Assembly: GCF_030463535.1 (NCBI RefSeq)
Contig: NC_132881.1
Span: forward strand, 2,173,345 to 2,237,344
DNA length: 64,000 nucleotides
Source of the DNA: Salminus brasiliensis
Taxonomy: Eukaryota; Chordata; Actinopteri; Characiformes; Bryconidae
Direction of reading: 5' to 3'
Position numbers and translations under genes: made by a program. Below are positions 3,001 to 63,148 of the stretch, one piece after another (the first letter of the stretch is position 1; each line of letters starts with the position of its first letter). The notes below the pieces were generated by a model. It did no database searches and was not told where the DNA came from. It saw nothing but the letters and a program-made list of their open reading frames with translations.

Positions 3001-6000
3001 ACAAACATTCAAATCTGCAACACGTTTGACTAAAACACAACGTTATTTTAAAGCATACAAAACACCACAGTATACAATACTGCACGGTATACCTACTACC
3101 GGGTACCCTACCGAGACACTTTTCAGCTGCAAAATTGAGGGCTGAATGAGAGTCAAATTGCTTAAAATGATAAATTACAGTGGAGGGAAAAAAGTGTATG
3201 GTTATCGTCTTAAAGACAAGTCAGGACTCAAAAAAAAGAAAAGAAAAGGAGAAAGAGACAGAACTCACTTTGATGGTTCTCTGCAGTTTCAGGATTTCTC
3301 CCTGGTCACCATTTTCAGCTCCTGGCACTTTGGATGCCTGAGAGACATGAACAAAAAACATCCTATCAAAATACAACTGGGCAGAACAGGACAAAAGGGC
3401 AGTTTTTGCTTAAAAACAAAAGTTTTTTTTAAAAACAGTCTTGTGAATTATCAGAAATTGTGCGAAGATCAGTGGTAAACTGCCCGGCTTTAAAGACACT
3501 AAACTGAAGTGAAAATTAAGCAAATTTCAGATTTGTAAAAATAACGAAGAGAGAGAAAATCAGTGGTTAACCTGTTAAAACAAACAGGACCCCTGACAGG
3601 TCATTTTAGACCGAACCAAACCAGAACCAGTAATAATACATAGACAGGCAGCCCATAATAACCTTCAAAACTGAAAGTCTGCTTTAGGAGAATCTGTAGA
3701 CAAAGCCAGGTTGGGTGTTACCTGAGCGACTCTCCTCCAGTGGGCTATATCCACCTCCAGGCGATGCACCTCACTGGACAGTCGGTTGATTTCCTGCTGT
3801 GACCACAGGACATCACTCAGGTCCACCTCATCTCCATGGAAACCGTGATGGGCTGCTGAGGTGCTGGACAGGTAGGAGGTGGAACTCGTAGTGGTGGCAC
3901 CAGTGGTAACAGGAAGAACAGCAGGACCGGAAGTGGAAGGAGTGACATCGGAACTTCTGAGCTTCTGAACCTCTTCCTGCAAGGTGTTCTGACGGGCTTT
4001 CAGGTGGCTGATCTCTACCTGGAAACACATGTAAACACAAAGCTGATCAAAATAATATCCCCAACATATCAGCATAATATATCATATCAGAGGGGCGAGT
4101 GATGGAGGGGGGGGGACAAGGGAGGGAACAAGGGAAATAGGAGGAGGATGAGACAGGGACACAGGCAGTGAGAAACCCACCTCCTTCTGCTGCAGGAGAG
4201 TCCGGTACTCCAGTGACTGCTGTTTAACCTGGATTTCTGCTGCCTCTAACTTCTCCTCCAGCTCAGCATTGATCCGCCTCAGACGCTCATGCTGGAGTAG
4301 TGAGAGAGCGAGAGAGAGAGATGAAGAGCTTTACGCTTCATTTACACAGAGGGTCAAAGACTCTGTACGTACAGGACAAAAGAACACACACCTCAGACTT
4401 CTGTGTTGCAAACGAAGCCTCCAGTTCCACCAGCTTCGAGTTGGACACCTGCAGCTCAGTAGCAGCATCTGTGACAAAGCAAAGCATATACTGTTCAGAC
4501 ACTCTATAGGAACCTACACATGCAGGTCTATTTATACCCACCCCAACCATTTCAGCGGTTATGCACATAATGAGCTGTAAGCAATACCACCACCCACCTG
4601 ACCTCACCCCAAACTCTACAACTAGGGTGGGCGATAAGGTAAAAATATGAGGCTATAGTGCTGGGCAGTATAACTGTTCATTCGGTACACCGTTTAAAAT
4701 TCGTTCTATGGTCCACGTTTTGTTTTTGGTTTTTTACATACCACGATACCACTCAATGCTGGGGGGCTATATACCCCTCTAGCCCATGCCTGGCATTAGG
4801 CAGCATGGTGCCAATGGGCCCATGTTTACTATCTGCTTCAGAGAGTCCTATTCTATTGGCAGGACTTTTCTACAGGGACTAGACAAGCTGTGTGTGCGTA
4901 TGCATCTGTGCCAGCAAAGGGTGCAGCTTAAAGTTGCTGAATGTGTTCACTAGAAGGGGTGTCCACAAACATTTGGACAGACACATCCCTGTGAGAATCA
5001 GCTGCTGAAACTCAGTCACGCATCTCCAACAATGTCACTGAGGCAAAGCACCCGAACAGGACCGACAACCAGGCCACTCAGCAGCGTGCGCTCAGCAGCG
5101 TGCGCTCAGCAGCGTGCGCTCAGCAGCGCCGGCCTCCAGGTAGCACTTTATTTTCATGGACGATCGCACACTGCTCGACTACAGCAGATAAAGAGTACCA
5201 CCCGAAAACAGCCCCGGCACATTCCTGACAGAGATAACCTCGGTATCTGCTGATGCTACAGATCTCAGCGGAAACGAGAGTCTTCAGTCTGGTTACAGCA
5301 CAAATACCACGTCCGCTAGCCGTGTAACAGATCAAGTACGGACCCCCCCATATTTTGGGAGCCACACCCAAACTAATATAAAAGTCACTAATACAAACAA
5401 AGAAGCAATTAGGTTAACTGGTAGATGTTTAGTGTGTAAAAGTAGCTATGCCGAGTGTGTAAAAGTAGATGTCGAGTGTGTAAAAGTAGCTATGTAGAGG
5501 GTATAAAAGTAGCTATGTAGAGGGTATAAAAGTAGATGTAGCGTGTATAAAAGTAGATGTAGAGCGTATAAAAGTAGATGTAGAGTATAAAAGTAGCTGT
5601 AGAGTATAAAAGTAGCTGTAGAGCGTATAAAAGTAGCTGTCAAGGGTATAAAAGTAGATGTAGAGCGTATAAAAGTAGATGTCAAGGGTATAAAAGTAGA
5701 TGTAGAGCGTATAAAAGTAGCTGTCAATGGTATAAAAGTAGATGTAGAGCGTATAAAAGTAGATGTCAAGGGTATAAAAGTAGATGTAGAGCGTATAAAA
5801 GTAGCTGTCAATGGTATAAAAGTAGATGTAGAGCGTATAAAAGTAGCTGTCAATGGTATAAAAGTAGATGTAGAGCGTATAAAAGTAGATGTCAAGGGTA
5901 TAAAAGTAGATGTAGAGCGTATAAAAGTAGATGTAGAGTGTGTAAAAGTAGCTATGTAGAGTGTATAAAAGTAGATGTAGAGTATAAAAGTAGATGTAGA

Positions 6001-9000
6001 GCGTATAAAAGTAGATGTCAAGGGTATAAAAGTAGATGTCAAGGGTATAAAAGTAGATGTAGAGCGTATAAAAATAGATGTAGAGTGTGTATAAGTAGCT
6101 ATGTAGAGTGTATAAAAGTAGATGTAGAGTGTGTAAAAGTAGCTATGTAGAGTGTATAAAAGTAGATGTAGAGCGTATAAAAGTAGATGTAGAGCGTATA
6201 AAAATAGATGTAGAGTGTGTATAAGTAGCTATGTAGAGTGTATAAAAGTAGATGTAGAGTGTGTAAAAGTAGCTATGTAGAGTGTATAAAAGTAGATGTA
6301 GAGTATAAAAGTAGATGTAGAGCGTATAAATGTAGATGTCGAGTGTGTAAAAGTAGCTATGTAGAGGGTATAAAAGTAGATGTAGTGTGTATAAAAGTAG
6401 CTGTAGAGCGTATAAAAGTAGCTGTAGAGCGTATAAAAGTAGCTGTAGAGCGTATAAAAGTAGCTGTAGAGCGTATAAAAGTAGCTGTAGAGCGTATAAA
6501 AGTAGATGTCAAGGGTATAAAAGTAGATGTCAAGGGTATAAAAGTAGCTGTAGAGCGTATAAAAGTAGATGTCAAGGGTATAAAAGTAGCTGTAGAGCGT
6601 ATAAAAGTAGCTGTAGAGCGTATAAAAGTAGCTGTAGAGCGTATAAAAGTAGCTGTAGAGCGTATAAAAGTAGCTGTAGAGCGTATAAAAGTAGATGTCA
6701 AGGGTATAAAAGTAGATGTCAAGGGTATAAATGTAGATGTCGAGTGTGTAAAAGTAGCTATGTAGAGGGTATAAAAGTAGCTGTAGAGCGTATAAAAGTA
6801 GCTGTAGAGCGTATAAAAGTAGCTGTAGAGCGTATAAAAGTAGCTGTAGAGCGTATAAAAGTAGCTGTAGAGCGTATAAAAGTAGATGTCAAGGGTATAA
6901 AAGTAGATGTAGAGCGTATAAAAGTAGCTGTCAATGGTATAAAAGTAGATGTAGAGCGTATAAAAGTAGCTGTCAATGGTATAAAAGTAGATGTAGAGCG
7001 TATAAAAGTAGATGTCAAGGGTATAAAAGTAGATGTAGAGCGTATAAAAGTAGATGTAGAGTGTGTAAAAGTAGCTATGTAGAGTGTATAAAAGTAGATG
7101 TAGAGTATAAAAGTAGATGTAGAGCGTATAAAAGTAGATGTCAAGGGTATAAAAGTAGATGTCAAGGGTATAAAAGTAGATGTAGAGCGTATAAAAATAG
7201 ATGTAGAGTGTGTATAAGTAGCTATGTAGAGTGTATAAAAGTAGATGTAGAGTGTGTAAAAGTAGCTATGTAGAGTGTATAAAAGTAGATGTAGAGCGTA
7301 TAAAAGTAGATGTAGAGCGTATAAAAATAGATGTAGAGTGTGTATAAGTAGCTATGTAGAGTGTATAAAAGTAGATGTAGAGTGTGTAAAAGTAGCTATG
7401 TAGAGTGTATAAAAGTAGATGTAGAGTATAAAAGTAGATGTAGAGCGTATAAATGTAGATGTCGAGTGTGTAAAAGTAGCTATGTAGAGGGTATAAAAGT
7501 AGATGTAGTGTGTATAAAAGTAGCTGTAGAGCGTATAAAAGTAGCTGTAGAGCGTATAAAAGTAGCTGTAGAGCGTATAAAAGTAGATGTCAAGGGTATA
7601 AAAGTAGATGTCAAGGGTATAAAAGTAGCTGTAGAGCGTATAAAAGTAGATGTCAAGGGTATAAAAGTAGCTGTAGAGCGTATAAAAGTAGCTGTAGAGC
7701 GTATAAAAGTAGCTGTAGAGCGTATAAAAGTAGCTGTAGAGCGTATAAAAGTAGATGTCAAGGGTATAAAAGTAGATGTCAAGGGTATAAATGTAGATGT
7801 CGAGTGTGTAAAAGTAGCTATGTAGAGGGTATAAAAGTAGCTGTAGAGCGTATAAAAGTAGCTGTAGAGCGTATAAAAGTAGCTGTAGAGCGTATAAAAG
7901 TAGATGTAGAGCGTATAAAAGTAGATGTAGAGCGTATAAAAGTAGCTGTCAAGGGTATAAAAGTAGATGTAGAGCGTATAAAAGTAGATGTCAAGGGTAT
8001 AAAAGTAGATGTAGAGCGTATAAAAGTAGCTGTCAATGGTATAAAAGTAGATGTAGAGCGTATAAAAGTAGATGTCAAGGGTATAAAAGTAGATGTCAAG
8101 GGTATAAAAGTAGATGTAGAGCGTATAAAAATAGATGTAGAGTGTGTATAAGTAGCTATGTAGAGTGTATAAAAGTAGATGTAGAGTGTGTAAAAGTAGC
8201 TATGTAGAGTGTATAAAAGTAGATGTAGAGTATAAAAGTAGATGTAGAGCGTATAAATGTAGATGTCGAGTGTGTAAAAGTAGCTATGTAGAGGGTATAA
8301 AAGTAGATGTAGTGTGTATAAAAGTAGCTGTAGAGCGTATAAAAGTAGCTGTAGAGCGTATAAAAGTAGCTGTAGAGCGTATAAAAGTAGATGTCAAGGG
8401 TATAAAAGTAGATGTCAAGGGTATAAAAGTAGCTGTAGAGCGTATAAAAGTAGATGTCAAGGGTATAAAAGTAGCTGTAGAGCGTATAAAAGTAGCTGTA
8501 GAGCGTATAAAAGTAGCTGTAGAGCGTATAAAAGTAGCTGTAGAGCGTATAAAAGTAGCTGTAGAGCGTATAAAAGTAGATGTCAAGGGTATAAAAGTAG
8601 ATGTCAAGGGTATAAATGTAGATGTCGAGTGTGTAAAAGTAGCTATGTAGAGGGTATAAAAGTAGCTGTAGAGCGTATAAAAGTAGCTGTAGAGCGTATA
8701 AAAGTAGCTGTAGAGCGTATAAAAGTAGCTGTAGAGCGTATAAAAGTAGCTGTAGAGTGTATAAAAGTAGCTGTAGAGCGTATAAAAGTAGATGTCAAGG
8801 GTATAAAAGTAGATGTCAAGGGTATAAAAGTAGCTGTAGAGCGTATAAAAGTAGATGTCAAGGGTATAAAAGTAGATGTAGAGCGTATAAAAGTAGCTGT
8901 AGAGCGTATAAAAGTAGCTGTAGAGCGTATAAAAGTAGCTGTAGAGCGTATAAAAGTAGATGTCAAGGGTATAAAAGTAGATGTCAAGGGTATAAAAGTA

Positions 9001-10685
9001 GCTGTAGAGTGTATAAAAGTAGCTGTAGAGTGTATAAAAGTAGCTGTAGAGTGTATAAAAGTAGCTGTAGAGCGTATAAAAGTAGCTGTAGAGCGTATAA
9101 AAGTAGATGTCAAGGGTATAAAAGTAGATGTCAAGGGTATAAAAGTAGCTGTAGAGCGTATAAAAGTAGATGTCAAGGGTATAAAAGTAGCTATGTAGAG
9201 GGTATAAAAGTAGCTGTAGAGCGTATAAAAGTAGCTGTAGAGCGTATAAAAGTAGCTGTAGAGCGTATAAAAGTAGCTGTAGAGCGTATAAAAGTAGCTG
9301 TAGAGCGTATAAAAGTAGCTGTAGAGTGTATAAAAGTAGCTGTAGAGCGTATAAAAGTAGCACAGAGGATCTAAAAGTAAATGTAGAGCGTATACAGTTA
9401 GATTTAGGGCATATAGCTTTAAACTATTGATTGAACGGTTGGAAAGAAGGGTCTCTATCACTGAAGCGTGTGGAGGCCCTGAAACAGAGACATGAGTCAT
9501 AGTCTGTCCGCTGTTCTGCTCCGCTGGAAGCTGCTGGTCAAAGTTCTCCATCCATGCCGGGTGCAGGATGTCCACCAGCACCAACAGCGCTACACATACG
9601 GTGGGTTAGGCAGAGCTGATCTGAATTCCCGGACTGCACAGAACACGGCCTGCTACACGAGCGCACACAGGGATGAGGGCGACTTTTAGCCCCTCTGCCC
9701 CCCTCGTTTTGGGGTCATGACTTAATCTCTTGGGACAGATTTCTCCAGGCTTTGAACGCTCTGCGATTCTAAAAGAGTAACTTGAAAGTGTCTGAGAACA
9801 CACCAAATTTATCTCAAGATAATTCATTAGAGCAAAAACAAACCCATTTAAACAACACAACTGTAATAATATACTTTTTACAACAATAATAAAAAACTAT
9901 TATATTAAACTAAATGTTAGTTATTGTTGCAGATGTTTGTCTGTCCGTCTGTGGGACCGTCTGTGGGTCTGCCTATAGGTCCGTCTGTGGGTCTGCCTGT
10001 ACGTCCGCCTGTGGGACTGTCTGTGGGACCATCTGTGGGTCTGCCTATAGGTCCGTCTGTGGGTCTGCCTGTACGTCCGCCTGTGGGACTGTCTGTGGGA
10101 CCGTCTGTGGGTCTGCCTATAGGTCTGTCTGTGGGTCTGCCTATAGGTCCGTCTGTGGGACCGTCTGTGGGTCTGCCTATAGGTCCGTCTGTGGGTCTGC
10201 CTATAGGTCCGTCTGTGGGTCTGCCTATAGGTCCGTCTGTGGGTCTGCCTATAGGTCCGTCTGTGGGACTGTCTGTACGTCCGCCTGTGGGACTGTCTGT
10301 GGGACCATCTGTGGGTCTGCCTGTGGGACCATCTGTGGGTCTGCCTATAGGTCCGTCTGTGGGACTGTCTGTACGTCCGCCTGTGGGACTGTCTGTGGGT
10401 CTGTCTGTGGGTCTGCCTATAGGTCCGTCTGTGGGTCTGCCTATAGGTCCGTCTGTGGGTCTGTCTGTGGGTCTGTCTGTGGGTCTGTCTGTGGGTCTGT
10501 CTGTGGGACTGTCTGTGGGACTGTCTGTGGGACTGTCTGTGGGACTCACCCCCGACCTCCTCGGTTCCCTCCAGCAGGATGTCTTTGGTGAAGGTGGAGA
10601 TCTGACCGGTGAAGGAGGACAAGCTCCCCCCGACCTGACCGAGGGACTGTCCGAGTCCGGAGCCCAAACCCCCCAACCAGGACAT
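1..10685 (-). CDS. trip11: trip11 (GMAP-210 golgin), 5' part, truncated by window edge
   Basis: Thyroid receptor-interacting protein 11 / GMAP-210, a long coiled-coil tether of the cis-Golgi that captures small vesicles and supports cilium traffic (family knowledge). Exons read on the minus strand: 10550-10685 (ATG at 10685), 4392-4468, 4181-4291, 3722-4018, 3269-3337, 2437-2602, 1925-2263, 1780-1820, 1534-1632, 324-530 and 1-189 (continues outside). They join in phase to 577 codons. Residues 1-45 begin [20 protein letters not shown], the curvature-sensing ALPS motif found at the GMAP-210 N-terminus. Residue ~100 onward has the conserved [10 protein letters not shown], then [12 protein letters not shown] and [17 protein letters not shown], all coiled coil. 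Exon 11 ([10 protein letters not shown]... NDLHMGKQ) is the start of the very large central exon known in mammals. Intron 1 is 6.1 kb and mostly tandem repeat. The gene lies downstream of golga5 in the same orientation. Confidence 0.96.
883..1296. mobile_element. MITE-like DNA transposon copy in a trip11 intron
   Basis: The segment begins AGGGTTGCAACGGTA and ends with the imperfect inverse TTACCGCTGCAACCCT, giving roughly 15-bp terminal inverted repeats. The interior (about 380 bp) has no reading frame and carries further CGGTATGATAACCG-type inverted motifs. It sits in the trip11 intron between exons 9 and 10. A clear target-site duplication was not found, so the superfamily (hAT or piggyBac type) is open. 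Confidence 0.55.
2676..2810. repeat. AT-rich microsatellite cluster (AAT/ATT, AGT)n
   Basis: Imperfect (AAT)n/(ATT)n runs grade into a clean (AGT)n run at about 2,783-2,801, inside the trip11 intron upstream of exon 6. Simple-sequence DNA with no coding content. Confidence 0.85.
4640..4990. repeat. dispersed repeat, fish non-autonomous DNA-element type
   Basis: The stretch ends in GGGTGTCCACAAACATTTGG, a tail that recurs at about 14,570-14,600 and 58,440-58,475 and, inverted, near 61,395-61,440. The interior text (TCAGAGAGTCCTATTCTATTGGCAG... GACTAGACAAGCTGTGTGTG) is also shared, inverted, with the 61.5-kb copy. A dispersed family is therefore seen directly. Its class is inferred, not proven. 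It lies in trip11 intron 1. Confidence 0.6.
5430..9370. repeat. 21-bp tandem array with TATAAAAG in nearly every unit
   Basis: About 3.9 kb of head-to-tail units whose basic form is GTATAAAAGTAG followed by CTGTAGAGC (21 bp). Common variants have ATGTAGAGC, ATGTCAAGG or CTGTCAATG in the second half, and a less frequent longer unit reads GTGTAAAAGTAG plus CTATGTAGAGT. Dividing the length by 21 gives about 188 units (estimate). Because 21 is a multiple of three and the common units lack stops in several frames, long spurious open frames of 100-360 codons appear on both strands. They encode only heptad repeats and are not genes. The array lies in trip11 intron 1, antisense TATA orientation relative to the gene. 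Larger blocks are duplicated within it, with shifts of 1,123 and 804 bp. Confidence 0.97.
9936..10545. repeat. 12-bp minisatellite abutting trip11 exon 1
   Basis: About 50 units of 12 bp, mainly GTCTGTGGGTCT, GTCTGTGGGACT/C, GCCTATAGGTCC and GCCTGTACGTCC. It ends within four bases of the trip11 exon 1 splice donor (GT at 10549-10548). The pattern GTCTGTGGG... continues right into the donor, so the donor itself is part of or derived from the array. The exon 1 reading frame stays open through the whole array on the minus strand, encoding tetrapeptides such as [12 protein letters not shown] and THRR, down to about 9,921. Confidence 0.95.
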
Positions 10686-33684: not shown

Positions 33685-36600
33685 TTAAGCCATAACCAGA
33701 CCACGCCTGGCACCAAGCATGGTCTCTTTCTTCTGCTTCCTGCCCTCTGTGTGCTTGACGCGTCGTTCCTCCCTGCGGTGGAAAAGAAAGGAGAGCAAAA
33801 ATGACTCCTATTCAATTCTTGGATGAATGCATCTAATTGGAAATCACTGAAACACAGTTTGTCCTCTGTGTCATACAGATAAGCAATTATTACCTAGCTG
33901 GATCCAGTTACACTTTCAGAGAAGATACTGGCACGGACTCACTCACCTTGTCTGTACCTGGTGTTGTTTGTAATTTTTCTGGTGAGAAGGAATCGTCACA
34001 GACTTGTTCAGGGCTGCGTTTTCTTGCATTGCGCCAAAAGGCTTCAGCTTCCCTGTGGGGATTAAATGGGGGGGCAGTGGCATTAGATGTGTCCAATAAA
34101 TCCAGAGGTAAATCTAAATCTGGGATACTAATGCCTCATTAAAGCAATTAGCAACAACAACAAATGATTCTCTGTGTCTGGTTATATACAGTAGCGTAGC
34201 AAATAATGTACAAATCTGAGACCACCCACCCGTGTGAGGCTTATAGGTGAGGGGCCGAGAGAGACTGGCTTTCAAATCAAATGGGTTTTTCTTGTTGGTC
34301 GATGGAGTGGACGATGCACCATTGAAGACAAAGGGAGTCACTCCTAACGGTAAAACATAAAATTGGAATTTTATTGCATTTCCCAAATAAATGTGAATTA
34401 TTAATAGTTAAACACAAACATGCAGCACCACACTTTATTAATGACGTCTACTGTGTTTTGGATTAATGTTATTAATGTGGCTATTTCGGTCTTCGTAAGT
34501 GGTCATATCTGTCCATATTAAAAGCCTTTACTTTTAGCAGACAGCTAAGCATGTTCTTACCTGCGGTTTTATTCATGGAAGTGGTGGTCTTGTTAGTCTC
34601 TGTTTTGGTGCGGCCTTCAGACTTCCTGCCAGGAGTGGGGGTTAGAGGAATCATGGGGGACATCCGAGCTGGAGTCTTCACCAAAGAACGCTTGTGCTCA
34701 TTGTCCTGTGTTGCTTCAGAGAACCTAAACCATTTAAAAAGGGCATCAATTTATGAACAAGTAAGTCTTATACAGACAGTAGTATTATTTAGAGTTTAAC
34801 CTTCAACACCTGGTTTGGTGAATTAGTGCTTAATTATAGTAACCAGGTGAGCTGGTGATAGAATCGAACACATGCACATGTTGGCTGGGGGCATCCAGGA
34901 GAAATCTGGATGCTCTTTGAACTAGCTCACAAGATCACAACTACTTTCTTTAATACAGTAAAAACTCTCTGCAGAGAGAAATGCTTTAAATACTGTGACT
35001 GGGTGCCTAGAACCTTTAAACAGTATTGTTTATATAATCGGTTGCATGAAATCCATGATGTCTAACTACCGGCTTCATCTTACCTGACATTGATCTTGTT
35101 GACTGAAAAGACACTTGGTTTGAAGGTGGTACTGTCTTTTGCCGCAGACCTGTTGGCAAGAATTGGGGTGAACCTGCGTTTCTCTGCAGCAGGTTTCCTC
35201 TCCTGCAGGCCTGGACTGAACAGCGAGGCTCGGCTGGCTGGCGGTTTCTGCTGATAAACGTATCTTTAAGTCCAATGCTATTTCACAGAGCAAGACTGGT
35301 TTTATGAAGAGGAAACTAAAGCAAAACCATGGTTTACTTACAGCCCTAGTCTTTGCATCACCTGATTTCTTTGTCGTGTTCTCGGACTGAGCCTGAAATG
35401 ACAAGATGTTGAATGCTGTAATAAACTGCAAAGGGAAACAGTAAACATCATTCGGCACATTTCAATCCACTTCTTATTCTCAACAGCCTGAACAATTTAA
35501 AAGATATTAGAGAAAAGAGCAGTGCCTGAGAGCACCCACTTAAATATAGCTAATTCACCTTAAGTTCCTTAACAGAGCTTCTGAGGGTTTCCATCTGCTT
35601 GTTCTTCCTCTGCACGTAAGAATCAATAGACTCCATCTTATTGAAGTGGGCCTCATGGAGTTTCTTGAAGTCTAAAGAAAACACAAACACACATTATGTG
35701 AAGCACGGTGACTAAAATAGGCGTAATCCGACGTAGCATGTTAAAACGCAGGACCTGACCTTGCTGTTCTTTGCACTTTTTGCATTTACATCCACTTCAG
35801 AGGACGTACACATGCTTGAATAGCCTACAAATCACTCTGTTACATTCAATCAATTCGTCGTCTTAAACATTTGGAAGTAGAATCGCGATTTACTAATGTA
35901 TAATGGAATCGATGTGTGTCAGTGCCCACATATTCTGAAACCTCAAACACATTACATTCAAACACGTAAATGACCGTTTTTCACATAATGAAACCCTGAC
36001 TTACTCCACAGAATATCGGCGAAAACTCCCAGATAACGCACTTCTTTTGTTAACCTGGTAGAATAAAGTAAGAGTGGGAGATATGGCATACTGCCCTGCA
36101 GGAACCCAACTAATCAGGCCCATTTTGATCTCTGTACCAAAACATGCAGTTGTTCCATTCTCCTCAAACACTAATGTTATTCAGGATAGACTCAGGGAAG
36201 CATATTGCGACGAAGTACCAGAACAATGATGTAATCATTTTGCCCAACTCTTATAAACAGATTAAAATAAAACCTTACTGGGAGTGGTTGGTCTCAGAGG
36301 TGCCTTCTTCTTCAAGAGACCCTCATGACGAGGAATTCTACCAGCAGTTTTCTTACCCACGCCTGTAATGCAAAACACAAAAACTGAAGTCCCTGTAGTT
36401 ATTTGACCATGTTGGGACTGAACGTGTTGCCAAATGTATACCTTGAGCAGTCTGCTGAGTGTCAGGGTCATTAACAAATTCCGGTTTAGCCTCTGCTTGG
36501 TTTTTTGGAGTCTCTGTGCTCTTTCCTGAGGACACCTTTCTCCTTTTCGAACTCCTTCTGCCTTCCTCGGAGTCATTAGGCTTGGCATCGTCCTGAAAAT

Positions 36601-37894
36601 TGCGAACACTTAGTGCTGGGCGGTACTTACCAGCATATATAAACATACTACGATATTGCTTTTTGTAAATAATGAGCACATATCCAGGATACACTGCTAA
36701 TTAAACAGCAATAGCCTTACTATCAAAAGGTTAATAATGTTTTTTATTATTTAACAAGCACACGAATATGAAAAGCATCAGATTTCGCCATTAGTGAATC
36801 CCTACCACAAGTCTTATGATTTTAATTTTTGTTGTACTTTGCGCGGTATCCAGTACCCATCATATATAACATGATTGTTATATGCGTTATATTTATACAC
36901 ACAACAATCACAACAATCTTACCTGGGCTGGGCTCTCTTCCACTTTGGGCTCACCATCTGCACTGCCCTGGTCAGAATGCTTCCTCTTTGCGCTCTGACC
37001 CTTCCCACGGCGATTGGTCACATTTGAAGACACGACCTTGTCCACTGCCTGTGCACCAACATCATTTCCCTGAAGGATGCAATGCATTTGCTATGATGCT
37101 AAGGAACACAATTCTAATGTTTCATAACTAAGACAAACTCAAAAGGATGCAAAAAGGTGTACAGCGGCTGATTAGGAGATTAGACTCACGTTCTCTGAGC
37201 TCTCCTGTTGCTCAAAGTGCTGCTTTAAGGCCTTCAGCAACTTCTCAGCCTAAAAGCAAAACAAAGGTTAAGGTTAGATTCCACTCGGCTGCAAATGAAT
37301 GAGATTCTCTTTAAACCCTTTAGACCTTGTAAGTAAGCCCATACTTTGTCAAGCGCAAGGGCATTACTGTCATAATAAATAGCAGCTTCATAGACCCCAA
37401 AATAGAAACCTGTGGGACGCCACAATGATGTGCTAAATCCACAAAGGTTTCTGCATTAAAATAATAATAATAATAATAATAATAATAATTTTTAAACCTA
37501 AATAATAAATATAGCTAAAGCTGTGTGCATGATTTAAAAAATATATTAAAAGACATCCATCCTATTTTTACATAAACTAAACTCTCCAAAAAATATTTAA
37601 AATAATAATAATAAAAAAAAAAGTTATAAAATGTTCATCACAAACGTTAGCCAGCCAGCACCCTACATAGATCTCAGCGAGGCTGACAAATGTTCCATAC
37701 CACCTTAAAAGTCGCACAGTCACATTAAGGAGCCCGGCCATGCCCCAGTCTGCACCGTGCAGCATTTAAGGTGGACCAGAAATAAGACTAACGATCCCAG
37801 TTATCCGTCTTACCTTCATGTTGGCTTTCAAACCAACGGATTTGGCAAGCTGCTGCAAGTCTCCATACTTAAGAGAGTCTAAATCCATCTTCAT
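33685..37894 (-). CDS. nusap1: nusap1 (nucleolar and spindle associated protein 1), complete
   Basis: NuSAP is a microtubule- and chromatin-binding mitotic spindle protein (family knowledge). Twelve exons: 37814-37894 (ATG), 37190-37249, 36923-37069, 36442-36592, 36279-36362, 35559-35671, 35342-35392, 35084-35250, 34561-34724, 34230-34343, 33947-34052 and 33685-33772 (stop TAA). They are in phase throughout and give 441 residues, equal to the human length. Residues ~4-45 ([20 protein letters not shown]...) form the N-terminal SAP DNA-binding motif. Basic central part with [13 protein letters not shown] (nuclear signal). [20 protein letters not shown] and [19 protein letters not shown] are family signatures, and the Arg/Lys/Glu-rich C-terminus ends [10 protein letters not shown]. 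It is head-to-head with oip5 and tail-to-tail with ndufaf1. At the position where human has a KEN tripeptide, this copy has QEN. Confidence 0.96.
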
Positions 37895-38262: not shown

Positions 38263-40609
38263 ATGTCTCACAGAAAGCCTAGTTGTCGTTTAGCTGACAG
38301 CTATGAGTGCGATAGCACCCAAAGTAGCTTAGTGGTGGACCAGCTGAGAGCTGTGGAGCAGCCAAGAGAGCACAGCATGGACTATGAGAAGTGCAGTGTT
38401 TTGCACTGCGCCAAGTGCAGCACGGTCATAGCTGACTCTCTGGGTGTTTGTGGGGAGGCTAAGCATATCAAATCCATCATTTGCCTCAGTAAGTTTGTGG
38501 ATTGTGTCAGGTAAAATGTTCATTCGTGAAAAATTAATTAATTAAGTAATATCAATATCTGCTGGTGGTTTGTGAGATGTGTATGTAAGTATGTAATGCT
38601 CAGGGCAGCTGAAAACTGCCTAATTGAGTGTTTTCCAGGCCCAGTTGAAGGACCTCTAGGGTCAGCTATGCTATGGCACACCATGAGGGTTAAGGCCTTT
38701 TTAGCAGCATCTCTTTATCCCATATAATTGAATGTCCTGTATTGTGCCTTTAAAAAGCAGTCCAGATCCTTTTGACCTGGCTGTGAATGGGCAGGGCTAA
38801 ACTATGGAATATATGTCATATGTAAATGAGCTGTTACATCACAAAAAATGTCCTGAAACTAGTTATGTAATAATGTTCATCTGTTATTATATCAACATGT
38901 GTTGGTATGTAATAACTATTACATCTTTTAAACAACTAATGCTGTCCTACACAGAGATCACTAAGGATGTGAGAGTGAGAGGGAAGTTCGAGGTGTGCCT
39001 AGATGGTCCTCTGGCTTTTTGGTAAGTAAACCGTCCCTTAATGTGGCAGTTTTCTTATTTTCTTATGTTCTAAATTTGAAGTAAAAATCTACTCTTCCAT
39101 ACTTGTTTCCCAGCACTTACAAGATCCTTGAATGCACCGGTTGTCACCGTAGTGTGGGTGTTGTCCTTCACTCCACCCCACCACATTGGTCCTGCTTGAG
39201 GAACCTCTTTCTCTTGCGGAAAGAAGTGTTAAACTGGTGAGATTAAAATGGAAAAGGAAAAAAAATAAACTCTAATGTATGAATTCTGCAAAAAAAATAC
39301 ATTTTCATATTTCTGATGTTTATTTCCTTTATTCCCTTCAGTTACATGTTAAGAGATTCCACAGTGGTGAAAGCTACCAAAGTCAGCTTTGAAACCAGAC
39401 CTCTGAGAAGAAGCATCATTGAGGTAAGCATAGCTTGAATGTCAGAAATGTATCTATGTGCACTATTGAGGGCAGTTGTAGGGAGAATATCATGGAGCAC
39501 CCCAATTTCTATCACTTTTTAGAATGTATGTAAGCAATTCTTTAAAACAACACTGTCTGTAAAGGGAAACTAAGCTGCAAAATCTGGGTCTTGGTTTTAA
39601 TGATGTCAAAAAACAACACACTTAAATATTAGTGTATGGCAGATAAGCAATACAAGGCAGCCAGTGAGAAAGAAATGGCCTTTTTGGATAAATAAAACTT
39701 TTTGGGGGGGCATTTGGTATGTACAGCAACATGGACCACAACAGTGTCTCTCCAAAATGTCAACTTTACAGGACGAGAAAAAATCTTAACTTTCAATGGA
39801 AGTCATTCATTTTGGAGCATTTCTATTGGTCCGTTCATCATACTTTTTTATGCAATGTAAAGAACAACTGGCAAATTCACATGATGTCAAATTGTGAAAA
39901 ATTAGACCTTTTTGCATTACAGCGATGATGAGTGGCTCTAAAATACAAGACAAATGCAGGATATTGGTCCTTTAATTACACGAGTGTCCATTTAAGAAAG
40001 TTGAAGTTTATTATCAGTTAACATTCCTTCAAGACAGTGGAGCACATGCCACTATGGCCCAGGGTCACAAGTTCGAACCTTGAGCCATGCTGCCTTGAGT
40101 ACCCTCATCACTCTTAAAGCGATGTTGGTCGGCACAGGCGTCTTTAGCTGGTGTGGTGGAGCCGGGGACCCACCGCGTTTCTCTGAGCATGTCTGCTGCC
40201 CGGCTATGTTGCATCGGCAGCAGTTTCAAAAAGAGGCAGTGGCTGGCTAGGCGTTTATCAGAGGAGATGTGTTAAATCCTTACCTTCTTGGTGTCTGAAG
40301 CATTGCTAGTGCTAGGGGGAGCTTTGAATGGGTGCCAAATTGGGAGAACATTTATATTGGACATGTATATGGACAAAAAGGGGGAATACAGTAATATACA
40401 AGTTATATTTGTATATAATAAATACCTTTTTCTCTTTTCCATTCGGATGGTCCGCCCAGCTGAAACAGGATATGGAAGCTCAGCTGAAGCAAGTTGAAAT
40501 GTTGAAGGAAGTACTGGAAGAAGCAAGCATTCCCAGAGAGAGCGCCCGGCCTGATGCCAGTGCCAGTCTTCCTCACTCTACTACAATGCTGACCAGTGGC
40601 AGCGAGTAG
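38263..40609 (+). CDS. oip5: oip5 (Mis18-beta, centromere CENP-A licensing factor), complete
   Basis: OIP5/Mis18beta forms the Mis18 complex with Mis18alpha and M18BP1 to license CENP-A loading at centromeres after mitosis (family knowledge). Exons 38263-38488 (ATG), 38955-39021, 39114-39236, 39342-39423 and 40460-40609 (stop TAG) give 215 residues in phase. The Mis18/Yippee-like zinc fold is shown by two CxxC pairs: VLHCAKCSTVIADS near residues 45-58 and LECTGCHRSVG near residue 106. They are followed by a C-terminal coiled coil (LKQDMEAQLKQVEMLKEVLE) used for assembly of the complex. The frame is open upstream of the ATG to a GTG at 38197, but the first ATG in good context is 38263. AATAAA at 40818-40823. 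A SINE sits in the last intron. Confidence 0.94.
39760..39910. repeat. dispersed repeat copy in oip5 intron
   Basis: Approximate inverse of the 13,960-14,130 segment, sharing the GGAGCATTT(C/T)TATTGGTCC core. It lies in oip5 intron 4. Confidence 0.5.
40035..40275 (+). mobile_element. tRNA-derived SINE in oip5 intron 4
   Basis: Pol III box-B-like GTTCGAACCTTGAGCCATGC near 40,071, then a body shared with the 45.8- and 58.0-kb copies and, inverted, with 21.4 kb (TGGTGTGGTGGAGCCGGGGA; CCCGGCTATGTTGCATCGGC). Confidence 0.6.
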
Positions 40610-41480: not shown

Positions 41481-43753
41481 TGGAATCATTTTACACTCAA
41501 CCCCACTCTGACCAACTTAATAATATTCATGTCGTTATTATAATTCCCCAAACCTATAAACAACAAAAAAGAGGCAAATGTAGGATTGGCACCATGCTGT
41601 TTTTATTGCTAAAATTTCTGATGCAGACTATATATATTTTTTGTTTTCAATTGTACAAAATCAAGAAGAGGTTCATCTTAGCATGCTCAGCGCATCTGTA
41701 GTGCATAGATTTAACCCAACATACAGGATTCCCATCCAATGGCAAACAATGCAGGTTACAGCAGGGTCATAAACTCATATAATTCAACAGGAATGACTTG
41801 ACCTTAACCGCTGGGCCCAGTCGAAAATGTCAAAACCGCTCGATGGCATTTCACAGATATCATTCAATTTACACTGTCCGATTACAGTCCGTATTCACGC
41901 CCTTAAGATAGTCTGCACCTATCGTAATGTAGCATACCTAATGTAGAATGAAAAAAACTGCATTTTGTCTTATATCAGAAATCAAACCATTTAAATCATT
42001 TTGTTCACATTGGACATAAAAAATTAAATAAGACCAAATTGAACAAGGTCATGTTAAATTTGATACAGTTATCAGGTTCCCTCTAAGTAATAAATAATAA
42101 ACTGAATTTATTAAACCTTTGGGACCAAAAAAGAAGTTTTAGCTCAATTTTTCTGCTTTATGCTTCTATCCCCCAAGCAAAGTTTAATTATTGCATGCAA
42201 CACAACACATTTCTTACCCACTTCTACCATGCAGCAACTATATTTTCCTGCATTCCGATATAAAAACACCAATTAATACTAGGTTTACAGTCAGCCATTG
42301 CACAATGATGCCCATTTAAAGTCATTGGTTGTGGAATCTGAAATAACCACTGGTGTTTATAAACAGGATCCATCCAGAATTGAACGGTTTGAGTGAAGCG
42401 AAGGAGTCGCTCCTATTGCTTTCAGTTACAACTGGCTGCATATTCAATTACTGTGCGTTATGGTCACGGTCACGGTTTCGGTTTCTGCTGCTGTACCTAC
42501 ATAAAAATATGCGGTGCATATAGATAAACATCGCCAATACGTTCTCCACGCGAAGGGCCTCTGCCCTACTGCCGAAAATGGCAAATTTCAGCACTACATT
42601 CACAAATGTTTTTGGTTTTAATGACCGATGAAAGGAGTTGGCTGCTAACGACTGGCCTAGTGAGATAACTGAACTGTATGTTCTACCAATGGATGTCAAG
42701 AGTTGGTATGCGCCACGTAATAGGCCTCAACACTCACCACGGACGGCTACAAGTATGCTACAAGTTTTCCATTCCACAAAACACCATTCTGGCACTATAT
42801 TATTTCATGCATATAATAAGATTATTGCTTCTAAGTAACTAATGTACAGATGTATAGTATGGCTTGCATATATGTAAGTGTACTCTAAAAATATAGTTTG
42901 CATTCCAGTCATTGAGGTATTTATCTACATTACAATATTTTGATTGTTAGGGCATATGTTTGATTTTTTTTTTGTAACATTACTGTGTGTTCACTAAGCC
43001 TAGGCTAAAGCTTGTGCTACCTTAAGCTAGTTCGCAAACTATGTTAGATTACTAAGCGAATTAGTAGCGAATTCTCTATTGACCTCCTTTTCCATTGATT
43101 TTCAGAATTACTTAGGTATTCCCTCCCTCCCTCCCTCCCCAATTCACAGCATGTCGCTGATGCAATCATGAAGCACCTACGTATTTTACAGAACATCGAG
43201 TCTGACCTTCTTCCCTTTCGAGTTCTCGCCGATTTTGACCAGAAACTACGGCAGAGATTTAGGTGGGAGATGCTGATCAGCATTTAGACACACACAAACA
43301 CACAAAAAAAACCTTACGTTAACACAAACTAGCAAAACTACGAACATTTACAATAGCATGCAATTTGGCGTCGCTATTTTCACGCTAGTAAAACCAAATG
43401 CTAGACCTTGATAATGCTGATAGGGGAAGCTACTCAAAAAAACGTGACAAACAATGAACCTTCTGCTAACAAATCTAGGCCTCTCTTGGGTTTCCACTAC
43501 TATCCAGCTATCCAAAGCTCCTTAGCCTCAAGGCTACTCAATGAAAGGATGCTTCATCCACTAGCGGCAACTAACCCTTAACTATTTTGCTAAATCATTA
43601 GATTATATGCTGTGTTTTTGTTTCTTTTCTTTTTTTAAACTACATCTACTTTACTCTGCAAGCATTACGTCCAGTCATGCATGGCCACATATAACGTTGG
43701 CACGACAAATCCCGCTACGGCAAAGTAAGCGGATGAATCTATACATCATTTAA

Positions 43754-43778
43754 TGGAAGACATTGGTGATTTTGTTGT
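43754..43778 (-). promoter_or_regulatory. oip5-as1: conserved miR-7 target site of cyrano
   Basis: The plus strand reads TGGAAGAC, then ATTG, then GTGATTTTGTTGT. miR-7 is TGGAAGAC, TA, GTGATTTTGTTGT (as DNA). The minus-strand RNA therefore pairs with miR-7 over 8 seed and 13 3' nucleotides, with a small asymmetric internal loop, the geometry that triggers miR-7 degradation in mammals and fish. Confidence 0.95.
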
Positions 43779-45834
43779 TTTTTTCACGAACAACTCGTCA
43801 CTCGTTTGTACAATATACACATTTATCTTAAAACAGGACAATAAATAAATAAATAAATAAAGAGAAAGGGAAGAGGGCACGCCACGCATATTGCACATAT
43901 CCCATGTCCCTGGACGCCTGACCCAGGGGTAGGTTTGAAACTGGGCTGCACAAAGTCACCCAGTCAGAAAGCTTGCTGGTTTTTGTGCTACAATAAATTT
44001 CAGATGGAGCAAAACAGGTCCAGGTAAACATCTCCCAGCACGCAGCTTTGAATAAGAACCTAGGTAACAGTCTAAGGGGAACATTAGCAAGGGTGGGCAC
44101 CCTTAGCTAGAGCCTTACAGGATTTTTCCATTCTCCAAGTACGACTAATGTTGTAAAATATCAGAGTAGATTGCTACTGGGTTGTCAGGCATCCATGAGA
44201 TGCACTTATTCCTATAAAACTGTTCAATCTCAAAGCTTTTACGATTTTACTATTACTAAAACTAGGCCAATTCAGGCACAACCTTAGACACTAGCCTGTC
44301 TACACAAAGTGAAAACACATCATTAGCAAATAAAGAGCTTTACTAGTGTACAGCCTTCCTTTTCTAGGATTTTCCAACATCTTATCCAACAACTAAATAA
44401 CTCTGACACTAAAACAAGATACTTTGTGCATCTAAAGCTAAGCTATTGGCATTGACCATGAAAGGTTTTCTTCTTGTGCAACTCTATAAAGCATTTACTT
44501 TTACCTCTACTCTGAAAATACAGGAACAAGCTTGGGCCAAAAGGAAAGCTAAAGGAAGCTCTAAGCCAAACATGCTAGCTAACATGGATAACGATCGCTA
44601 GAAGCTACACTGTAAACTGTTTATATAAAAATGCAAAGGAAAAACTATTGCTTCGCTTGAAATTCATGAAATTCATGAAATTCAAGTTAAGCCTGCAAAT
44701 CGATTTCATCTTTAACAGACTGGTAACAGACTGACGGTGAAGTAGTAGCAACAATAATGATGTAGTTCAGGGTCCAAAGTTAACATTTGCTGGATATTTG
44801 CCATTTAGTTACATATCTTTTATTAAAACTTCCATTTTTAAACTAAATAACTGTTAAAATATATGTTAAAATGTACCATCATCACTGACTGTGTAGTAGC
44901 TAACTAACAATTAGCATACAGACACGCTGTTAGCAACATCAGCAACACCTCTGACTGAACTGAATAACTTTGCTGTTTCTCAATAATTCATTCAGTTAAT
45001 AGTTTAGACGGTTGAAATATGATTTTCTACAGGTTTTGGGCAAAAACAAAGCAATTTTTCTATCAATTTTCAACTTTGTATATATGAGTTTTTTACGCTA
45101 ATTTCTAAATCCTCAAGAAAAGGTTGTATGCTGTGTGTATTCTGTAGTCTGGGATCATTGTAGCTTGCTTTGACCTGTGTGTGCACAAATTGCAAAACTG
45201 AATGTGAACATAAAGCACAGAACAGACTAATTAAATGTCCAGGGTAAGCGAAACGGACGTCATGCTACACGAAACAAATCGCAGTTTTAAGAAATTTAAG
45301 TGAAGTAAAATTTGAACATTCCTTCCAAAATATAGTATGAAACTATGGTAAAGTAAGTTCTGTAAGTACAGTGGGGCCAAGACTTTACATTACAGTTGAG
45401 AAATGATTTGCCGTTGATTCTGTGGGCTTCGCCAAGAAGTCAGAAGCAGAACAGACAGGAACTTGACCCAGGCGGTGCCTCCACACTTCACTGCCGATGC
45501 CGGCCTCCATGACTTCTCAGCTGAGGAGGTCGGTTGTTGTACGAATCCAGGGAGGAAGTTAAGCAAATCTGGAGCCAGAACAGAGCAAGCTTTAGAATGA
45601 CTCGCATGTAATCTGCACATCATGCCACATATAAGAACATAGAAGATCACTTTTAGCCACAGCACTGTAAACACCACCACATCAACAGGCTCCTCAACTA
45701 AGCTTTTATTTTCTGGCAGAAGTTATTTTCTGTGTTATCCACAAGGGTGGCAACTATGAGCGCCTGTAGTCTCAACTACGGGAATACTGTAGGAATTTGC
45801 TGTAGCATAGCACTGTAGTTAGGTCGCTATGGCA

Positions 45835-46082
45835 GGTGACACTGAGCGGTCCAGCGAATTAATGCACTGCCACAATGATCCGAGGATCGCTGGTTCGAAT
45901 TCCAGGTCATACTGCCTGCCATCAGCAGCCGGAACCTGAGAGAGAGAACAACTGGCCTTGCTTTGGGTGGGTAGATGGCTTGCCCCCATGAAGTGTTACA
46001 TGTGATTGGGGCGAGCGTACTAATGAGTGAATTGGGCAATTTGCTATCAATTTGAGGAGGATCATTTATTCCCCCCACTTTG
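45835..46082 (+). mobile_element. tRNA-derived SINE in cyrano intron
   Basis: Box-B-like GGTTCGAATT at 45892-45901, then CCAGGTCATACTGCCTGCCA and TCAGCAGCCGGAACCTGAGA. It is the same family as 57,975-58,285. Antisense to cyrano, between its candidate exons 2 and 3. Confidence 0.65.
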
Positions 46083-46974
46083 TCTGCTTATCAGAAGACA
46101 ACAGAGGCGCTTACTTTAAGATTTTCATGGAAAGCTATGTTTCCACCTGCAGGTGAGTGGGAATGGATTAAACCATAATTAAAAACAGTAGGAAGCACCA
46201 TGCGTCTAGTGCTGTCCTCCAGGCCTGGCGGGCCAGAGTCCAGCACAGTTAGATGATTTCCTTGCAGATTCAAATCCTCCAATCATTGGGACTCACCGGG
46301 TAATGGTTCCTTTGTTGTCTTACGGCAAAACATGTTGAAACAGTTTCTTGAACACAGCAGGGAACACAAGCCTGCAGAGACAGAACAGTTAGTCGATAAT
46401 GCAAGCAGGCCGTTCTCTGAGGACAGGCTAGTGACGGACAATGTTTAGAAGTGGCAGCGTTTAGGCTAGTTACAGCGGTCATTAATCTAGCAGAACTGTC
46501 AGCACAGAGAGGAGCTGAGACTGGCAGAAAAAAAGCTACGGCTCTAGCAATGCAGTAATTTGGCAATAATAATAATAATAATAATAATTATTATAATAAT
46601 ATACTTTTTGTTCTCTTTGTTCTGAATGTATTTTATAGTGTTTATTTTTATGTTTCCTTAAACATTGTATAAATACTATCAATTTATTTTTATAATAAAA
46701 ATATATCTGTTATATAATGCATTTTGATAAAAAGGACAAGAACTAATATTCAGTCTTAATGTAACTAAAATATCACCCTGCCAGAGCTTGTTTTTTATAT
46801 ATATATATATATACTGGCCTAATAAAATTTTATGCTGCATTACAGACCTATACATGCTTACTGTTTATGAAGTGGTGCAGTTCAGTGCAGTGAATACAGA
46901 AGGAGCCCTGCGGTTATTAGGTGATGAGAGGTGCTGGGCTGTGCAGAGCCTCGGTTCGCTTCACTGGTAAACAA

Positions 46975-47290
46975 AGAGCATGCAGTGTGGGACACCCCCC
47001 TCAGACAAAAACCCCGTACCGTGGACCCGCCGTCCTTCTCCCGTCCAGTGGTGTGATATAACGACATGTCTGATGTGTATCCCCGTGCCATGGCGTGTTC
47101 CTGCGGGCCGTGGGGGTCCGATTTTCGGCCCCGTAGTTCGGCCGGACCCGGCCCGCTCTGCACAACTACGCCATTTCACCCCTATACGAAACTCTCCATC
47201 CGGAATGACAGTGAACGTCCAACGAGCTGATTGGCCACACGACCGGCCAATCAACGCCTAGAACCCGCCCTGCGAAGCAGGAGACTTGGT
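46975..47290 (-). promoter_or_regulatory. oip5-as1: cyrano promoter (CpG island)
   Basis: CpG-rich and GC-rich block with ATTGG/CCAAT boxes (GATTGGCCAC near 47,228; GGCCAATCAACG near 47,245), isolated from any coding exon. The next plus-strand gene begins 1 kb further right with its own island, so this one best fits the minus-strand lncRNA. Confidence 0.6.
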
Positions 47291-47299
47291 TAAGCAGCA

Positions 47300-47537
47300 A
47301 ACTGTCCAGTACGCCCTACCCGCCTACTGCCTACCTAGTGTACGACGTATTATCTGGAATATGAGGTACACGCCCTAGGTAGTGCACTTAGTGGTAAATA
47401 GGGACACAGTTTTAATTCGGATAAAACCCGCTGACGGAGTTTTTTTTTTTTTTTGGAATTTACTTATTATGTATTTATTGTATTATATTGCATTTAGCTG
47501 TGCGTTGCTTAGCTATTTAAATTAATTATTATTTTAA

Positions 47538-50135: not shown

Positions 50136-56389
<6,254 letters not shown>

Positions 56390-62648: not shown

Positions 62649-62759
<111 letters not shown>

Positions 62760-63148
62760 GTATATATATATATATGTATGTGTATATATATATAGAGCAG
62801 ATAAACATGAACTTATTGGCACCATGCTGCCTAATGCCAGGTGTGGGATAGAGCATTGAGTTGTGGAGCAGTGTGTAAAAAAAGAAGTGTGTTTTTAGCC
62901 AAACTAATTGTTGGTTATGAACAAAATAGTGGCCAAATTTTTTTGTGTTTGTTTAACCTTTCTATTTCTAGTAGCCTGTCATTGTAACTTACTGTGTCAA
63001 AGTAGATACTTGTTTTTTTAACATTCTGGTGTATTTTATTATTACATTTAAAGAATGTTCTTAGTAATGTAATGTTGTTGTTTTCATCTCTGCAAGTCGT
63101 GGCAGTGGACGTTTAGAGGACACACTTAGGAAAAAAAAAGGCGACCAA

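Follow-up and report, generated by a model that had tools for sequence, protein, structure and literature searches.

The minus strand of the window, that is, of the whole stretch of 64,000 nucleotides from Salminus brasiliensis that was analyzed, very probably carries from about 47.2 to 41.6 kb the ortholog of Cyrano (OIP5-AS1), whose predicted long last exon contains one TDMD-type miR-7 site. We give this reading a probability of about 0.94. It is based on the architecture of the site, the companion elements that lie in order around it, the flanking genes, a promoter-like stretch together with a polyadenylation signal, and the shortness of the ORFs. Both the gene and its miR-7 site are already known in fish and mammals and nothing here is new in kind; the work is an annotation check more than a discovery. 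Its interest is that the full pairing geometry of a miRNA-destroying site, described in mammals, is kept in a fish, and that the same genome contains the mir-7 targets (at least five genes) and a relative of ZSWIM8. The locus makes it testable whether fish Cyrano destroys miR-7, and why.

Pairing Geometry of the miR-7 Site

The site was characterized by its pairing, by shuffles, by a genome search and by comparison with the mir-7 genes of the species itself.

43754..43779, minus strand: TDMD-type miR-7 site

Read on the minus strand, positions 43779–43754 are AACAACAAAATCAC-CAAT-GTCTTCCA. Positions m1–m8 of miR-7 match 43754–43761, forming eight seed pairs (an 8mer), and m11–m24 match 43766–43779, forming 14 contiguous 3′ pairs; between the two helices, four target bases, CAAT (43762–43765), face two miRNA bases (m9–m10) in an unpaired center. 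The predicted energy of the duplex is −29.5 kcal/mol. An earlier note on this DNA had claimed minus-strand pairing with miR-7 over the 8-nt seed and 13 nt of the 3′ half, with an offset internal loop, and the matches at m1–8 and m11–24 confirm it. The interval that it gave, 43754–43778, fits a 23-nt miR-7, which makes 13 3′ pairs, and the 24-nt form makes 14. The mir-7 genes of this genome contain the miR-7 sequence that had served as query.

This pairing cannot credibly be put down to chance. A set of 60 first-order Markov sequences, each of 64 kb (120 strands), contained 369 miR-7 7mer-m8 seed matches, and the longest contiguous 3′ run next to any of them was seven, against the 14 observed; when 2000 shuffled miRNAs were run against the window itself, they produced 25,619 seed matches, with a longest 3′ run of 11. 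The window contains the 29-base site string a single time, and none of 100 shuffles contains it. Searched for the 23-base core, the genome (1,066,335,885 bases in 103 contigs) yields one exact match; the pattern search, which scores the best candidates only and skips simple repeats, reported six other matches, each with three mismatches, and five for a reversed control pattern. Viral contigs searched for the same site with a variable center gave no match, and text searches of papers retrieved neither the letters of the site nor those of miR-7 together with Cyrano.

Local RNA structure was considered as an explanation and rejected: the folding of the 251 nt surrounding the site is matched or bettered by 154 of 200 shuffles, and the hairpin that the site forms on the minus strand is nothing unusual, as 683 of 1000 flank shuffles are as stable. 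The predicted accessibility of the site is ordinary, 33% of the 26-nt stretches in 630 nt being more open. A cloverleaf proposed for Cyrano (Jones 2020) is judged inconclusive in PMC8250186.

Companion Elements and Their Order

Nine Cyrano elements are reported to be conserved in all 18 species compared, or in all but shark (PMC7798263). Our comparison covers eight of them. Besides the two halves of the miR-7 site, these are, from 5′ to 3′ on the minus strand:

47169..47174, minus strand: ATGGCG followed by TAG, a 2-aa ORF, tentative 5′ AUGGCG element; TISU match at 7 of 12 positions
43889..43897, minus strand: TGTGCAATA, miR-25/92 seed match, LncLOOM element 2; only copy in the window on either strand
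43739..43745, minus strand: TGTATAG (UGUAUAG), Pumilio-like, LncLOOM element 6; 8 bases downstream of the miR-7 site
43675..43681, minus strand: TGCATGA, Rbfox motif WGCAUGA, following TGTATAG at a distance of 57 bases (PMC7798263: about 55)
41702..41708, minus strand: CTATGCA (CUAUGCA), miR-153 seed match whose start precedes that of the polyadenylation signal by 99 bases (PMC7798263: about 100)
41602..41609, minus strand: GCAATAAA (GCAAUAAA), Cyrano polyadenylation signal; followed by a T-rich stretch

The order UGUGCAAUA, the two miR-7 halves, UGUAUAG, WGCAUGA, CUAUGCA and GCAAUAAA is the published one. The miR-25/92 element UGUGCAAUA (43897–43889) lies 109 bases upstream of the miR-7 site, and the polyadenylation element is described as being a miR-137 site as well (PMC7798263). 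At the 5′ end, ATGGCGTAG (47174–47166) falls inside a CpG-rich stretch, in a poor TISU context.

Five ordered motif tests, with distance limits that follow PMC7798263 but were set after the hits had been seen, were all positive at the locus; among 2000 shuffles in which the site was held fixed, 1872 were positive in none, 127 in one and 1 in two. The weakest of the five is the upstream ATGGCG-type short ORF, which also appears in 86 of the 2000 shuffles. Motif density in the predicted last exon speaks against the reading: the exon contains one consensus PRE (a number reached by 220 of 500 shuffles) and three WGCAUGA motifs (reached by 49 of 500), against 18-species averages of 3.2 and 9.8, respectively (PMC7798263). 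Two further miR-25/92 matches of the 7mer type were seen in this exon, at 42303 and 42195 of the minus strand; such hits number four in all, and 33 of 500 shuffles reach this number.

Predicted Transcription Unit

The proposed gene model is as follows, exons having been predicted with simple weight matrices.

41585..47190, minus strand: predicted Cyrano transcription unit; both ends placed manually, close to the 5′ ORF and the polyadenylation signal
47001..47500, minus strand: CpG-rich stretch resembling a promoter, at the predicted 5′ end
46297..46371, minus strand: predicted exon 2, 75 nt; acceptor TCTCTGCAG, donor CCG/GTGAGT
41585..45935, minus strand: predicted last exon; acceptor TCTCTCTCTCAG; holds every element listed above except the 5′ one

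Spliced in this way, the predicted RNA would measure about 4.6–4.8 kb; zebrafish cyrano is 5.5 kb long (PMC6633201). A strong splice donor for exon 1 was sought with the weight matrices and none was found, the best score being 6.8. The stretch at 47001–47500 has a CpG observed/expected ratio of 1.02–1.10, a GC content of 0.50–0.56 and CCAAT motifs in both orientations. By the cut-off that was chosen, it is one of seven CpG-rich clusters in the window, and it likely marks the promoter. Together with the polyadenylation signal it bounds about 5.6 kb. The longest ATG-initiated ORFs in two predicted spliced RNAs are of 87 and 79 aa. The proposal that this otherwise anonymous stretch of some 6 kb is a functional lncRNA locus is in line with a predicted Cyrano unit of about 5.6 kb whose two predicted spliced RNAs hold no ATG ORF longer than 87 aa.

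Gene Neighborhood and Copy Number

Protein-coding genes were recognized on both sides of the predicted unit.

50658..56389, plus strand: tmem39-family gene, upstream of Cyrano; Pfam Tmp39 in four exon stretches, E 7.3e-27 to 1.8e-34
38263..40609, plus strand: oip5 (Mis18-beta) coding exons; Yippee-Mis18, E 2.3e-22, exons joined by hand
34114..37894, minus strand: nusap1; NUSAP, E 3.6e-15, on 34114–34407; start at 37894 placed by eye

The upstream gene is assigned to the tmem39 family as a whole, since Pfam does not tell A from B. Downstream, oip5 stands tail to tail with Cyrano, with an AATAAA near 40.8 kb; its first exon taken alone is weak in Pfam (E = 0.0024) and has no PDB match. nusap1 stands head to head with oip5, and a Pfam search with its hand-joined 5′ exons returned no family. 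The genes beyond oip5 are nusap1, a CIA30-domain gene taken as ndufaf1, rtf1 and golga5. Human OIP5-AS1 presumably also has RTF1, NDUFAF1, NUSAP1 and OIP5 as neighbors. In zebrafish, cyrano is flanked by tmem39b upstream and oip5 downstream (PMC6347452), and the arrangement found here, a tmem39-family gene upstream and oip5 downstream, matches it. A genome search with the 321 bases around the site found one match and no second copy of Cyrano, which is thus single to the extent that this search can tell.

The window also contains three conspicuous repeats: about 4 kb of a 21-bp minisatellite (5421–9415, 189 copies), whose plus strand is much richer in G than in C and which lies among golga5 exons; a 24-bp repeat (9943–10543, 25 copies) that is open in several frames; and a TA dinucleotide array (62653–62794, 71 copies).

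The pairing geometry, the named elements in order on the same strand and the zebrafish-like gene neighbors bear out the earlier suggestion that the site is the conserved core of Cyrano. The opposite possibility, a miR-7-like site arisen by chance in unrelated intergenic DNA, deserves virtually no credence: nothing was found in its favor, and it is contradicted by the statistics of the site, by the ordered companions and by the gene order.

Resemblance of the Plus Strand to mir-7

A site so complementary to miR-7 might have another origin: it could be the relic of a plus-strand mir-7 hairpin, now transcribed antisense inside Cyrano. Positions 43739–43826 of the plus strand do give a full-length match to the Rfam mir-7 family (RF00053), at 21.8 bits and E = 0.77, the sole match at E up to 1 between 41 and 48 kb. 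This score is below the gathering score of the family (51.8), and at gathering scores Rfam finds no match in the whole window. Moreover, part of the score comes from the miR-7 complement alone, the plus strand being a near-copy of miR-7. What matters is the opposite arm, for which the tests yield at worst no signal and at best a result that about 2.5% of shuffles share. When it is set in register against the star arms of this genome's five mir-7 genes, it agrees at 10 of 12 positions, a level attained by 123 of 5000 shuffled sequences and by 78 of 18,274 stretches of the window; this figure is for the best of five arms, in the last of several tests, run after the alignment had been seen, and out of register 268 of 5000 shuffles agree as closely. 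With the star arm of the Rfam consensus, an ungapped comparison gives 9 of 12, a level that 241 of 2000 shuffles and 93 of 4264 stretches of the window attain too. Neither a gapped alignment (1508 of 2000 shuffles and 594 of 1500 stretches do as well) nor plain complementarity to m11–24 (1439 of 2000) exceeds chance. Folding does not clearly set the hairpin apart: shuffles equal a 66-nt plus-strand stretch in 16 of 200 cases and the 88-nt match in 50 of 200, and when the flanks are shuffled, 182 and 114 of 1000 sequences attain the hairpin energy.

Because the best signal came last of several tests and from the best of five arms, we regard an antisense-relic origin as very improbable. If true, it would mean that a miRNA gene, read backwards, became the destroyer of its own miRNA, and would suggest a birth route for degradation triggers. 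No paper announcing an antisense or hairpin origin of Cyrano appeared among the titles and abstract openings listed, a sample from which absence from print cannot be claimed.

Putative Partners: mir-7 Genes and a Relative of ZSWIM8

The putative partners of Cyrano were sought in the genome assembly. Six places differ by at most two mismatches from the first 22 bases of miR-7, and the reversed control gave none. Five of the six are mir-7 precursors according to Rfam, with 61.9–83.6 bits (cut-off 51.8); the count is therefore at least five, as a search for near-identical patterns would miss diverged copies. The sixth, on contig C19 (30175101), has two mismatches and no mir-7 hairpin at the gathering score, and is either a chance match or a decayed mir-7 copy.

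With the site, the mature arms of all five genes form eight seed pairs and a 3′ run of 13 (one gene) or 14 (four genes), with duplex energies of −29.4 to −29.6 kcal/mol. Four of the genes share one 22-mer and the fifth, on contig C1 (15288641), differs from it only at m10, opposite the loop; judging from these sequences, all five products should therefore be targeted by the site. We take this fifth gene to be miR-7b-like. In its best predicted duplex, m9–m10 pair with the two adenines of the loop, which is thereby mostly closed, and leave two one-base bulges in the target; on this model, the center could be more closed for the miR-7b-like product than for miR-7a.

The C-terminal family of ZSWIM4–8 has five matches at three loci of the genome. 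One of them is a relative of ZSWIM8, seen here in its C-terminal exon (contig C4, 38102176–38102373), which aligns over 55 residues with ZSWIM8 in PDB 9rwz (E = 1.5e-28) and has an open reading frame.

Possible Degradation or Repression in Fish

From mammalian work, we infer that Cyrano may drive the destruction of miR-7 in this fish as well. By analogy, Argonaute loaded with miR-7 would bind the site through the seed and the long 3′ helix; the unpaired middle would block slicing and bend the duplex, so that the 3′ end of the miRNA would leave the PAZ pocket. The ZSWIM8–cullin ligase would then ubiquitinate Argonaute, the proteasome would remove it, and miR-7 would be destroyed, a single Cyrano molecule possibly acting several times.

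What is known of zebrafish invites a different view of the site in an equally orthologous Cyrano, namely that it mainly lets miR-7 act on Cyrano, or has some other conserved use, and is no important destroyer of miR-7. Zebrafish that lack the site or the gene are reported to develop normally, to be viable and fertile and to show no overt defect (PMC6347452). Furthermore, when the conserved region was deleted, the truncated transcript was overexpressed in embryos and in adult tissues except brain; a possible reason, according to the authors, is that the transcript is more stable once the miR-7 site is gone (PMC6633201). On the other hand, the site has the full TDMD geometry, with 14 contiguous 3′ pairs and an open center, which goes beyond the need of repression, and the genome contains both mir-7 genes and a relative of ZSWIM8. 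We consider this alternative unlikely and retain a Cyrano ortholog with a TDMD-type site as the preferred reading.

Comparison with Known Systems

Two other RNAs share part of these properties. CDR1as (ciRS-7) also binds miR-7, but it is a mammalian circular RNA with many miR-7 sites and is reported not to trigger miR-7 decay (PMC6175985). The miR-29b degradation trigger libra/NREP is described as pairing with both ends of its miRNA around an unpaired center, as here, but it is a different gene and acts on a different miRNA.

Compared with known Cyrano, the locus differs in a few respects. The miR-25/92 element is farther from the miR-7 site (about 60 bases upstream in PMC7798263), the TISU context is weak, and PRE and Rbfox motifs are fewer than the 18-species average. 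Duplicates of human and mouse Cyrano are reported in a review (PMC8250186), whereas no second copy of the core was found here. As in Cyrano/OIP5-AS1 of zebrafish, mouse and human, an 8mer seed match and 14 contiguous 3′ pairs, the combination that PMC10899785 gives for Cyrano, stand among elements in the same order (PMC7798263), and, as with zebrafish cyrano, the gene has a tmem39-family member upstream and oip5 downstream.
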